A stretch of 64,000 nucleotides of DNA from Desulforamulus hydrothermalis Lam5 = DSM 18033 (GTDB lineage Bacteria > Bacillota > Desulfotomaculia > Desulfotomaculales > Desulfotomaculaceae). The position numbers were made by a program, and so were the translations under genes. The notes under the pieces are model-generated. The model saw nothing but the letters and a program-made list of their open reading frames with translations. It was not told the origin of the DNA and did not search any database. The stretch lies in NCBI RefSeq assembly GCF_000315365.1, contig NZ_CAOS01000012.1, positions 62,001 to 126,000 on the forward strand, given 5' to 3'. Shown one piece after another: positions 912 through 57,959 of the stretch (positions within the stretch are counted from its first letter, which is position 1; each line of letters begins with the position of its first letter).

Positions 912-1040
912 CAGAGTGTCGACAAAACCTTATCGGTGGTTTATGACCCCCTTTGGCTCCGGTCTACGCACCGACAGCAATATGATTCGCTGCGGTCGCC
1001 CTTGGGGTCGCCTAAACGGGCCAGCCTGGGCTCCGGGCTA
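912..1040 (+). repeat. Fold-back element remnant A (left half)
   Basis: The left end CAGAGTGTCGACAAA and the following roughly 110 bp (GGTGGTTTATGA, CTTTGGCTCCGGTCTACGCA, CCCTTGGGGTCGCC) match the intact copies at 18202 and 35926. The right half is missing; similarity fades near 1035-1060, just before the crp stop codon at 1074. The left end touches the crp terminator hairpin, as in the other copies. A short stretch near 1047-1060 may be a scrambled piece of the right half, but this is weak. Confidence 0.8.
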
Positions 1041-3929: not shown

Positions 3930-3992
3930 CAGAGTGTCGACAAACATTACCGGTGGTTTATGATCCCCTTTGGCTCCGGTCTACCGGTACCT
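3930..3992 (+). repeat. Fold-back element remnant B (left end only)
   Basis: CAGAGTGTCGACAAACATTACCGGTGGTTTATGATCCCCTTTGGCTCCGGTCTA (in pieces, 3930-3983) matches the first 55-60 bp of the complete elements. It then breaks off into unrelated sequence and a second terminator hairpin. The right half and right hairpin copy are gone. Confidence 0.8.
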
Positions 3993-4005
3993 TTATCCTT
4001 AAGCC

Positions 4006-15084: not shown

Positions 15085-15335
15085 TGGCAACGCCAATGAG
15101 CGGGAAAGTAAAATGATGGGAGCTGGACAGAGAGCCCGGGCTTGGTGGAATCCGGGTCAGAGCCATCCTTTGAAAATCACCCGGGAGGTACCTGCTGAAA
15201 CCTTTTGACACAGGGAGTAGGTTGGGTCGGTGCGCCGCCGTTAAAGGTGTTCGGAGTGTTCAGGCGTGGTCCTGTTCATGAGGGTGGTACCGCGGGTAAT
15301 CAGCTCGTCCCTTTGGGGCGGGCTTTTATTTTTAC
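15085..15335 (+). ncRNA. T-box leader (isoleucine-specific) of ileS
   Basis: The leader carries the T-box sequence AGGGTGGTACCGCGG at 15281-15295, the AGTA and CAGAGAG features of stem I, and a specifier-loop codon ATC (15176-15178, in GAAAATCACC), which is an isoleucine codon. A terminator hairpin follows (CTCGTCCC-TTT-GGGGCGGGCTTTT). Uncharged tRNA-Ile would pair with the leader, open the terminator and turn on ileS. Confidence 0.92.
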
Positions 15336-18172: not shown

Positions 18173-18201
18173 AATATGCGGGAGCTGCTTACGGCAGCTC
18201 T

Positions 18202-18467
18202 CAGAGTGTTAACAAACATTAGCGGTGGTTTATGATCCCCTTTGGCTCCGGTCTACGCACCGACAGCACTATGATTCGCTGCGGGGGCCCTTGGGGTCGC
18301 CTCAAACGGGCCATCCTGGCCCGGTTCGGCTGGCACCCACGTCCTGTGGGCGCCCCACCCAATGGCTCCTTTCGCTCATCAAGTGCTGTGACCGGTGCTT
18401 CGACAAGTCGCCGACAGGGGATCATCAAACCACCTCACTTTGTTTTACAACCTTTGTCTACAGTCTG
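18202..18467 (+). mobile_element. Fold-back terminator-targeting element, complete copy C
   Basis: This element of about 266 bp begins with CAGAGTGTTAACAAA and ends with TTTGTCTACAGTCTG, imperfect inverted repeats of 15 bp. Its two halves are roughly complementary along their whole length (GGTGGTTTATGATCCCC pairs with GGGGATCATCAAACCACC; GCACCGACAGCACT with AGTGCTGTGACCGGTGC). It sits at the ileS terminator. The hairpin GGAGCTGC-TTAC-GGCAGCTC is present as an exact direct repeat on both sides (18181-18200 and 18468-18487); only the right copy keeps the T-tract. It encodes no credible protein. Confidence 0.85.
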
Positions 18468-18497
18468 GGAGCTGCTTACGGCAGCTCCCTATTTTTT
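18468..18497 (+). terminator. Original ileS terminator (right hairpin copy)
   Basis: GGAGCTGC-TTAC-GGCAGCTCC followed by CTATTTTTTG is a full Rho-independent terminator. The hairpin part is duplicated on the left side of the fold-back element (18181-18200), separating the ileS stop from its T-tract by about 270 bp. Confidence 0.85.
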
Positions 18498-19055: not shown

Positions 19056-19287
19056 GGAGCGGATGAAGGCTGTGGGAGAGACCCTAAAGGGCGCCGAAGG
19101 AGCAAAACCGGTTAGCCGGCTGTGGGCAACGGTTAAACTCTCAGGCAAAAGGACTGCAGCCGGACGAAACTCTGGAGAGTTCCTGCCCTCGGGGCAGGAC
19201 ACCCAAGGGGAAGCTTTCCGCAGGGAAGTCATCTCTCAGGTTAAAAGGACAGGGTATGCCAGCAGTGGTATAACTCTGTCCTTTTCT
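19056..19287 (+). ncRNA. Tandem glycine riboswitch with terminator, upstream of gcvT
   Basis: Two glycine aptamers lie back to back. Aptamer 1 (about 19056-19163) has GGATGAAGGCTGTGGGAGAG, GGCGCCGAAGGAGCAA and AAACTCTCAGGCAAAAGGAC. Aptamer 2 (about 19164-19255) has CTCTGGAGAGT, ACACCCAAGGGGAAG and TCTCTCAGGTTAAAAGGACAG. The last P1 strand overlaps a hairpin, AGGACAGGGTA to TAACTCTGTCCTTTTC (19246-19287), that looks like the expression-platform terminator. Glycine binding should free the downstream glycine-cleavage genes. Confidence 0.93.
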
Positions 19288-35250: not shown

Positions 35251-35273
35251 AAATTGACTGGGAGATGGTTCCT

Positions 35274-35891
35274 GTGATCATTGAAACAATAGTAGTGGGT
35301 CAATTAGAGGCAAACTGCTATATCATCGGCTGCCCGAAAACCCGCCGGGCGGCTGTGGTGGATCCCGGTGAAGAAGCCGAGCGCATTTTAAACAAGTTGG
35401 CCCAGGGGGGATGGCAGCCGGTGGCTATAGTTCTTACCCATGGCCATGCCGATCATATCGGTGCGGTGGGAGAAATAAACAAGGCCACCGGGGCACCGGT
35501 GCTGATTCACAGCCAGGACGGCGAAATGTTAACTGACCCGGCCCGCAATTTATCGGCCTGGCTGGGGACACAGCTGTCATTTAAGCCTGCCGACCGCCTG
35601 TTGGCGGACGGCGATACCATTGAGGTGGGAACCATTACCTTGTCTGTGCTCCACACACCCGGCCATACACCGGGCGGCATCTGTCTTAAAGCCGGCCAGG
35701 TCCTGTTTACCGGTGACACCTTGTTTGCCGGCTCTGTCGGACGCAGTGACTTCCCCGGGGGCAGTCACGACACACTGATTAAGTCTATTCAAAGTAAATT
35801 GCTGACGTTGCCGGAAGATACCGGAATTTACCCCGGTCATGGCCCCGCTTCTACCATCGGGGCAGAAAAAAGACATAATCCATTTTTATAA
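35274..35891 (+). CDS. MBL-fold hydrolase (glyoxalase II-like)
   Basis: The 205-residue metallo-beta-lactamase protein begins IIETIVVGQLEANCYIIGC and carries the metal motif THGHADHIG, HTPGHTPGGIC, LFTGDTLFAGSVGRSDFPGG and PGHGPASTIGAEK. It is like the persulfide dioxygenase/glyoxalase II-type hydrolases; the substrate is not certain. GTG 35274 is chosen by homology of the start and spacing from GGGAG; ATG 35265 is possible. Confidence 0.9.
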   Translation: MIIETIVVGQLEANCYIIGCPKTRRAAVVDPGEEAERILNKLAQGGWQPVAIVLTHGHADHIGAVGEINKATGAPVLIHSQDGEMLTDPARNLSAWLGTQLSFKPADRLLADGDTIEVGTITLSVLHTPGHTPGGICLKAGQVLFTGDTLFAGSVGRSDFPGGSHDTLIKSIQSKLLTLPEDTGIYPGHGPASTIGAEKRHNPFL

Positions 35892-35925
35892 ACATTAAAC
35901 GCCACCAGCCGAAGCGGTGGCGTTT

Positions 35926-36190
35926 CAAAGTGTCGACAAACCTTATCGGTGGTTTATGATCCCCTTTGGCTCCGGTCTGCGCACCGACAGCACTATGATT
36001 CGCTCCGGTCGCCCTTGGGGTCGCCTCAAACGGGCCATCCTGGTCCGGTTCGGCTGGCGCCCACGTCCTGTGGGCGCCACCCCAAGGGCTCCTTTCGCTC
36101 ATCAAGTGCTGTTACCGGTGCTTCGACAAGTCGCCGACAGGGGATCATAAAACCGCCTCTCTTTGTATTACAACCTTTGTCTACAGTCTG
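35926..36190 (+). mobile_element. Fold-back terminator-targeting element, complete copy D
   Basis: This 265-bp copy shows the boundaries best. It runs from CAAAGTGTCGACAAA to TTTGTCTACAGTCTG and is flanked by a perfect 29-bp direct repeat (35897-35925 and 36191-36219). That repeat is exactly the terminator hairpin AAACGCCACC-AGCCGAAGC-GGTGGCGTTT. Only the right copy is followed by the T-tract. Inside, the halves pair along their length, with the loop near GGCGCCCACGTCCTGTGGGCGCC. No plausible protein is encoded. Confidence 0.88.
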
Positions 36191-36230
36191 AAACGCCACC
36201 AGCCGAAGCGGTGGCGTTTAAAATTTTTTG
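36191..36230 (+). terminator. Terminator of the MBL hydrolase gene (right hairpin copy)
   Basis: The stem AAACGCCACC / GGTGGCGTTT is followed by AAAATTTTTTG. The same hairpin stands at 35897-35925, before the fold-back element and 6 bp after the MBL stop codon. Confidence 0.8.
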
Positions 36231-40959: not shown

Positions 40960-40984
40960 AATGTTCAGGTTTATAAGGATAAAT

Positions 40985-41250
40985 CTATGATCGGGAGAGT
41001 AGGCTTGAGAAACCTTGCCCAGGGAGGAGAAGCCCCGGACTGTAAGCTTCTCTGCAAGAACTTTAGCTGAAGAACACCCGAGAGTTACCCCCGAAAGGAT
41101 AATGTCCCGGTAGGCCGGTACGGAACAACGCCGTTATCGTTGACTTGAGAGGAACTATGAAGTTCAATCAGGGTGGCACCACGGGAAAATCCTCCCGTCC
41201 CTGGCGATGCTGCGGCATGCCCGGGGGCGGGAGTTTGTTTTTGGAAAACA
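40985..41250 (+). ncRNA. T-box leader (histidine-specific) of hisS
   Basis: The leader contains the T-box sequence AGGGTGGCACCACGG at about 41169-41183, stem I features (GAGAGTAGGC near 40994) and a specifier codon CAC (41075-41077, in GAACACCCG), a histidine codon. A terminator-type stem CCTCCCGTCCC ... CGGGGGCGGGAG followed by TTTGTTTTT lies at about 41191-41242. Uncharged tRNA-His should switch on hisS. Confidence 0.9.
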
Positions 41251-44621: not shown

Positions 44622-44826
44622 CACTTGCACATTGCCCTGCTTTGTGCGTGTGTAACCTGAAGTTTTGAGCCAACATTGAAGAAATAGGGAGCCCGGTTTC
44701 ACGCAAGGGAATGTAGACCTTACCGGCATAAGGAAACAGGAAATTGCGGAAGGGCACCCACCTGTTGGAGAACAGGTTCAAAAAACTTTGGGTATAAACA
44801 CGGCATGGTGGGGTTTCCTTTTTATT
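44622..44826 (+). ncRNA. ssrS: Probable 6S RNA
   Basis: This protein-free stretch of about 200 bp folds as a long rod with an open centre. Lower stem: CGTGTGTAACCTGAAGTTTT (44647-44666) with AAAAACTTTGGGTATAAACACG (44781-44802). Upper stem: GGGAGCCC (44687-44694) with GGGCACCC (44752-44759), CGCAA with TTGCG, and an apical CCTTA/TAAGG. The 3' side of the bubble carries a small hairpin ACCTGTT-GGAG-AACAGGT, as in many 6S RNAs. It ends at TTTCCTTTTTATTT. A promoter precedes it, and the aspS-yrvM neighbourhood is also where Bacillus keeps a 6S gene. 6S RNA mimics an open promoter and sequesters the sigma-A polymerase. Confidence 0.75.
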
Positions 44827-44835
44827 TGCATAAAT

Positions 44836-44994
44836 CCCGCCGGCCCCCACAGGACGTGGGAGCCGGCCGAACCGGGCCAGGATGGCCCGGTTGAGGCGAC
44901 CCCAAGGGCGACCGTAGCGAATCATAGTGCTGTCGGTGCGCAGACCGGAGCTAAGGAAATCATAAACCGCAGTTAATGTTTTGTCGACACTCAG
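44836..44994 (-). repeat. Fold-back element remnant E (left half, inverted)
   Basis: Read on the minus strand, CTGAGTGTCGACAAAA (ending at 44994 on the plus strand) and the following 150 bp match the left half and loop of copies C and D (CTCCGGTCTGCGCACCGACA, CCCTTGGGGTCGCCTC, CCACGTCCTGTGGG). The right half is missing. Its left end abuts the terminator hairpin at 44996, as in the other copies. Confidence 0.82.
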
Positions 44995-57753: not shown

Positions 57754-57959
57754 TGTCGACAAACATTAGCGGTGGTTTATGATCCCCTTTGGCTCCGGTC
57801 TGCGCGCACCGACAGCACTATGATTCGCTCCGGTCGCCCTTGGGGTCGCCTCAAGGGCTCCTTTCGCTCATCAAGTGCTGTTACCGGTGCTTCGACAAGT
57901 CGCCGGCAGGGGATCATAAAACCACCTCATTTTGTTTTACAACCTTTGTCTACAGTCTG
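57754..57959 (+). mobile_element. Fold-back terminator-targeting element, copy F with apical deletion
   Basis: This 206-bp copy runs from TGTCGACAAA to TTTGTCTACAGTCTG. It lacks the 57-60 bp at the loop end of the hairpin (CTCAA is joined to GGGCTCC), leaving a shorter but still complementary structure. It lies in the alaS terminator: GAGAGACGCATTGCCGT (57738-57754 and 57960-57976) occurs on both sides, so here the repeat covers the 5' arm and loop only. The usual CAGAG before TGTCGAC is replaced by terminator sequence. Confidence 0.85.

Follow-up and report, generated by a model that had tools for sequence, protein, structure and literature searches.

Whole-hairpin duplication at the insertion sites of Desulforamulus MITEs very probably moved by an IS1182-family transposase

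Introduction

Behind a gene for a metallo-beta-lactamase-fold hydrolase in Desulforamulus hydrothermalis, a 265-bp sequence, hereafter element D, stands between two copies of the hairpin that forms the terminator of that gene. This raises the question of how an insertion can duplicate an entire stem-loop and which enzyme would carry it out, as the target duplications of DDE transposases are mostly short and of fixed length. To address this question, we analyzed the 64,000-nucleotide stretch of DNA around the locus (the window), the D. hydrothermalis genome from which it comes (2.69 Mb in 16 contigs, a draft assembly), and the genomes of relatives. Judged from the sequences, element D is very probably a non-autonomous element (MITE) that depends for its movement on a trans-acting DDE transposase of the IS1182 family, which would choose its targets by hairpin structure and duplicate the whole hairpin.

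Results

Structure of element D and its insertion site

The two 29-bp repeats flanking element D are palindromic and identical, and they abut the 265-bp element with no leftover bases (Table 1). This agrees with a preliminary description of the locus, which also rightly saw that only the right hairpin still has the T-tract beside it. The same description placed the insertion between the stem and the T-tract; the insertion itself is upheld, while its exact position needs a small correction. The flanking repeat takes in the first three Ts beyond the G+C-rich stem, and the orthologous terminators, GGTGGCGTTTTTTTA and GTGGCGTTTTTTAGG, indicate a junction just within the T-tract and not strictly at the stem/T-tract boundary. 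Since one hairpin copy stays ahead of the T-tract, the host probably keeps its terminator. The terminal inverted repeat of the element is imperfect (CAAAGTGTCGACAAA / CAGACTGTAGACAAA). No plausible gene was found in element D, where the overlapping frames in the ORF list of the window are all short and mechanical. Promoter-like sequences, which are weak consensus matches, lie in both subterminal arms and face inward (35933-35960 on the plus strand and 36144-36173 on the minus strand); the minus-strand match sits ahead of the start of an RNA motif, TwoAYGGAY, that makes up the core of the element.

Table 1 Features of element D, its site and related copies in the window.
Feature	Position	Strand	Description
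Element D	35926..36190		265-bp non-autonomous element (MITE), no protein of its own
Left hairpin copy	35897..35925		29 bp, perfect; T-tract no longer adjoining
Right hairpin copy	36191..36219		T-tract still downstream at 36224-36229
Left terminal inverted repeat	35926..35940	+	CAAAGTGTCGACAAA; consensus CAGA.TGT.GACAAA; ends common to IS1182 elements of D. putei and G003
Right terminal inverted repeat	36176..36190	-	CAGACTGTAGACAAA
Subterminal inverted repeat, left arm	35953..35965		13 bp, perfect; partner 36139-36151
Subterminal inverted repeat, right arm	36139..36151		13 bp
TwoAYGGAY RNA (RF01731), core of element D	35974..36128	-	Rfam, 53.1 bits (gathering score 43)
Upstream gene, metallo-beta-lactamase-fold hydrolase	35265..35891	+	Its own terminator is the target; orthologues in G004 and G005
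Second complete element	18202..18467		93% identity; TwoAYGGAY at 18250-18405 (-), Rfam
Left hairpin copy of second element	18181..18200		GGAGCTGCTTACGGCAGCTC
Right hairpin copy of second element	18468..18487		Same hairpin as left, GGAGCTGCTTACGGCAGCTC
Left-end-truncated copy	57754..57959		Remains of duplicated hairpin on both sides
Truncated copy	912..1037 (right limit approximate)		Behind hairpin 890-911; second hairpin lost
Truncated copy	3930..3993 (right limit approximate)		Behind hairpin; second hairpin lost
Truncated copy	44850..44994 (left limit approximate)		Right end kept; just downstream of 6S RNA

Duplicated hairpins flank copies across the genome

At least 40 copies with 91-96% identity to element D were found in the D. 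hydrothermalis genome, and the MITE copies number more than 50 overall, a total that is a lower bound drawn from the sequence around matches. A search of this genome with the end pattern CAGANTGTNGACAAA (at most one mismatch) gave 168 matches, compared with five for the reversed control. Copy length varies between 42 and 266 bp, with internal deletions accounting for the short copies. All of the first 30 copies examined adjoin a hairpin that is repeated across the element and is specific to its site. The preliminary description had named copies lacking duplicated hairpins as the counter-case to its proposal; the flanks of the other copies checked proved to be duplicated hairpins too, and the counter-case was not found. 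Moreover, the left and right flanks of 57 paired-end copies were compared, with flank pairs taken across different elements as the control. The flanks were duplicated, that is, more alike than 99.9% of these cross-element pairs, in 54 copies, and three failed this likeness test. With no transposase, many copies and ends common to an autonomous element (see below), element D has the features of a MITE.

Some sites show other arrangements. A 77-bp element at L059:973-1049 has a right hairpin that looks like an inverted, not a direct, copy of the left one, which suggests an inversion at the element. The hairpin copies flanking L016 differ at both sides of one stem pair (GGCC..GGCC versus GGTC..GACC), with the pairing kept. 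In the genome G002 (a draft assembly, 72% complete), related elements at eight loci lie between two different hairpins, and the same was seen at L118 and L120. Two of these eight loci (L168 and L176) have one hairpin in common, as expected from recombination between copies or from assembly misjoins.

Cuts are symmetric about the dyad of the target hairpin

The geometry of the target was examined in 32 different duplications that are exact, measure 14 bp or more and adjoin an end pair; they were picked regardless of palindromes. Each of them includes a hairpin whose stem scores eight or higher; a comparable palindrome was present near 81 of 20,000 random points of the window (0.4%). The duplications are 15-34 bp long (median 24), mostly 19-34 bp. 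Their centre coincides exactly with the dyad in 27 of the 32 cases and lies within 0.5 bp of it in 30, and the 27 dyad-centred cases point to structure, not sequence, as what sets both cut sites. In 20 of the 32, the stem can be extended outward past the duplication by one to seven pairs. Because the duplication is thus often short of the longest stem, the cut is best described as dyad-symmetric near the foot and not strictly at the base.

An alternative is that what singles out the target is its role in ending transcription, sensed via RNA polymerase, the T-tract or the hairpin of the nascent RNA, and not its palindromic DNA structure. The target hairpins do mostly resemble intrinsic terminators located downstream of genes. 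However, the dyad symmetry of the duplications argues against terminator recognition, as does the orientation of the elements relative to the T-tract, which is near even (21 versus 17). The target palindrome at L085, TGGTATACTTTTAGTATACCA, has no T-tract, a point in favour of DNA structure, rather than termination, being the target signal. We therefore regard recognition of the terminator as unlikely, albeit with some weight left to it.

An IS1182-family transposase as the putative partner

Autonomous elements with the same ends were found in two congeners. In the genome G003, five copies 1607 bp in length are flanked by hairpin duplications of 21-27 bp that are perfect or nearly so, and two contigs of D. 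putei (G005) start inside a 1.6-kb element (about 1604 bp). The single ORF of these elements encodes a DDE transposase of the IS1182 family: the curated model of the family, with a cut-off of 270 bits, gave scores of 456 and 447, and the domains DDE_Tnp_1_6 and DUF772 are present. The single ORF, the length of ~1.6 kb and the terminal inverted repeats match the IS1182 form. A transposase gene bounded by element-type ends, which the preliminary description had proposed to look for, is thus present in G003 and D. putei. The assignment of the MITE to this insertion sequence is a putative one, based on shared ends and a shared target habit. No close transposase homologue was found in the D. hydrothermalis genome itself (best E 3e-4), a draft assembly from which such a gene may have been lost, and the MITE copies consequently look stranded. 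This is in line with the earlier view that element D, having no protein, depends on a transposase acting in trans.

Elements with the same ends and whole-hairpin duplications also occur in Alkalithermobacter, a many-copy Tenericutes strain, Acholeplasmatales, G007, a Peribacillus plasmid and a Providencia plasmid; the hairpin-duplicating relatives come from Clostridia and Mollicutes as well as from the two plasmids. No duplication is seen at one Enterococcus copy. In a tree of 19 transposases, built without that of IS1272, the hairpin-associated rows cluster but do not form one clean clade; the duplication-less Enterococcus copy falls among them, and the Providencia row is unplaced. With the partner transposase as the query, no relative was found in viral contigs, nor was one found among PDB sequences.

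IS1202-type and IS1634-type elements also make long, variable duplications, with transposases of other families, and the preliminary description had suggested an IS1202-type partner. That suggestion does not hold. It is very improbable that a transposase of either type (ISNCY or IS1634) moves the element: although an IS1634-type transposase (L039) resides in the D. hydrothermalis genome, the ends of L039 differ from those of element D, and the elements with matching ends encode IS1182 transposases. The latter score far under the cut-offs of the ISNCY model (71 and 74 bits versus 325) and the IS1634 model (23 bits versus 100).

The predicted RNA core of the element

The core of element D exceeds the Rfam gathering score for TwoAYGGAY (Table 1), which was placed at 55 positions in the D. 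hydrothermalis genome and 36 in G002. When 36 diverse cores were aligned, both GGA loops proved almost invariant across the phylum, at a mean identity of 45%, and compensatory changes were seen in 23 of the 25 predicted pairs. Both loops are of the CA(n)GGA type, those of the Desulforamulus elements being one base short of AYGGAY (CAGGAYG). TwoAYGGAY has been presented as an orphan candidate RNA (PMC2864571, PMC4333381), for which binding of CsrA was proposed (PMC4333381). The element core resembles it in its score, its two conserved GGA loops and its covarying stems; unlike the element core, TwoAYGGAY is known as an orphan RNA, and a place in mobile elements is not described in the sections of these two papers cited here (PMC2864571, PMC4333381). 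A csrA gene is present in the D. hydrothermalis genome.

Related cores were also found between different ends in G001, G003 and G008, and a core from another genus (L197) has IS1182-type ends on its two sides and a duplicated hairpin of 20 bp around these. At five loci of other Desulforamulus species, cores lie between inverted ends of the GGGTATGGTGTTATCC type. The RNA core thus appears to have been joined to ends of more than one type. Across the phylum, TwoAYGGAY was detected in 51 of 398 genomes, with two or more copies in about two thirds of the 51, and in multicopy genomes it often lies between inverted repeats (four loci being examples). The whole Rfam family may therefore be the core of mobile repeats.

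A structured RNA as the core, together with a preference for terminator hairpins, could also indicate an RNA route as in group IIC introns, which sit behind terminator hairpins; the hairpin repeat would then come from target-primed copying. This route is highly improbable in view of three observations: the terminal inverted repeats are common to a DDE insertion sequence, hairpin duplications also flank derivatives that, at 42-146 bp, have no room for the RNA core, and the orientation of the elements is near random.

Orthologous sites without the element have a single hairpin

The locus of element D was compared with the orthologous sites of two congeners. In both G004 and D. putei, a single hairpin with a T-tract (AACGCCACggtcgtacGGTGGCGTTTTTT and CAACGCCACggaaaactGTGGCGTTTTTT, respectively) is located directly 3' of the orthologue of the upstream gene, and the element is absent. 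Two tandem hairpins in relatives without the element, the other counter-case named beforehand, were not found. A recent full-length IS copy in G003 (L085) gives the same picture, as the corresponding G004 site is uninterrupted, 98% identical and contains one palindrome. The single hairpin in relatives and the duplicated hairpins at other copies confirm the earlier statement that the duplicated target is the whole stem-loop. The notion that the hairpins are themselves part of the mobile unit (hairpin-element-hairpin), with no target duplication, would suit the first-examined copies, which are all hairpin-bounded, and the identity of the two hairpins at element D, but the hairpin varies by copy while the element is 91-96% identical, and the empty sites, which already have the hairpin once, refute this notion and leave it next to no probability.

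Discussion

The element finding is real and is well supported by empty sites and autonomous partners. Under the proposed IS1182-family mechanism, the transposase would recognise an extruded hairpin or cruciform and not a sequence, and would link each 3' end of the element to one of the two target strands, at positions that are symmetric about the dyad and near the 5' foot of each stem. Through gap repair, the hairpin in between would then end up on both sides of the element, as a target duplication of roughly 19-34 bp. What goes past the DNA footprint in this scheme, including recognition of a cruciform by the transposase, we infer from the sequences. D. hydrothermalis appears either to have lost the transposase or never to have had it as a resident, which would leave more than 50 stranded copies.

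Hairpin targeting in the IS1182 family is not new, since the statement that some members target palindromes, credited to Siguier et al. 2015, is made in both Furi et al. and Wan et al. (PMC4923244, PMC5678879). According to the passages of these papers considered here, IS1272 / TnSha1 of Staphylococcus, a member of this family, inserts at hairpins, in many cases those of terminators, that show no consensus in primary sequence, and removes or replaces the stem-loop, leaving no duplication (PMC4923244, PMC5678879). Compared by description, IS1272 shares the transposase family and the hairpin targeting with our elements; in contrast to its deletion of the stem-loop, insertions of the element D type keep and duplicate the whole of it, and IS1272-type replacement of the hairpin was not seen. 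Pathway b in Fig. 13 of Wan et al. 2017, drawn as hypothetical and with no example in the passage considered, has joining at the 5' feet of the stem-loop, which would duplicate the whole stem-loop (PMC5678879). The Desulforamulus elements fit this pathway. In the literature searched, which does not include Siguier et al. 2015, this hypothetical pathway was the only account found of whole-hairpin duplication by IS1182 elements, and the duplication mode, the dyad symmetry and the MITE expansion were not found described.

Other IS1182-family elements resemble the partner at the level of the transposase family. ISPse1 is described with a 4-bp duplication (PMC3281130); the examined copy of ISCfr1, a distant member, as well as an alphaproteobacterial IS1182 copy, has no hairpin duplication and has different terminal repeats. 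IS1182-derived MITEs of Methanosarcina, the partners of ISMac2, are 160-169 bp long and are tabulated with duplications of at most a few bp (PMC3852290). Like element D, they are non-autonomous and moved by an IS1182 transposase; unlike for element D, neither hairpin targeting nor an RNA core is mentioned in that table (PMC3852290).

These elements provide natural examples of a pathway drawn only as a possibility, with the opposite outcome, loss of the hairpin, in IS1272 of the same family. As the duplication follows the target hairpin in length and is centred on its dyad, structure-guided target choice becomes directly testable. An insertion that leaves the terminator in place would do almost no harm, and the high copy number could be due to this. 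Furthermore, the link to TwoAYGGAY provides a specific way in which this orphan RNA family could spread. A wider reading, which we put forward tentatively as possible though not the more probable outcome, is that a branch of IS1182 reads DNA shape, with an extruded cruciform, dyad-symmetric cuts, whole-hairpin duplication and a working terminator kept, and that TwoAYGGAY is a mobile RNA core, a MITE cargo possibly binding CsrA via its GGA loops, and not an ordinary cis-regulatory RNA.

Several other structured RNAs were matched by Rfam in the window. T-box leaders are located at 15087-15315 and 40978-41205, and a tandem glycine riboswitch at 19063-19255. A 6S RNA lies at 44631-44818, and the truncated element with a partial TwoAYGGAY core at 44850-44994 directly follows it.
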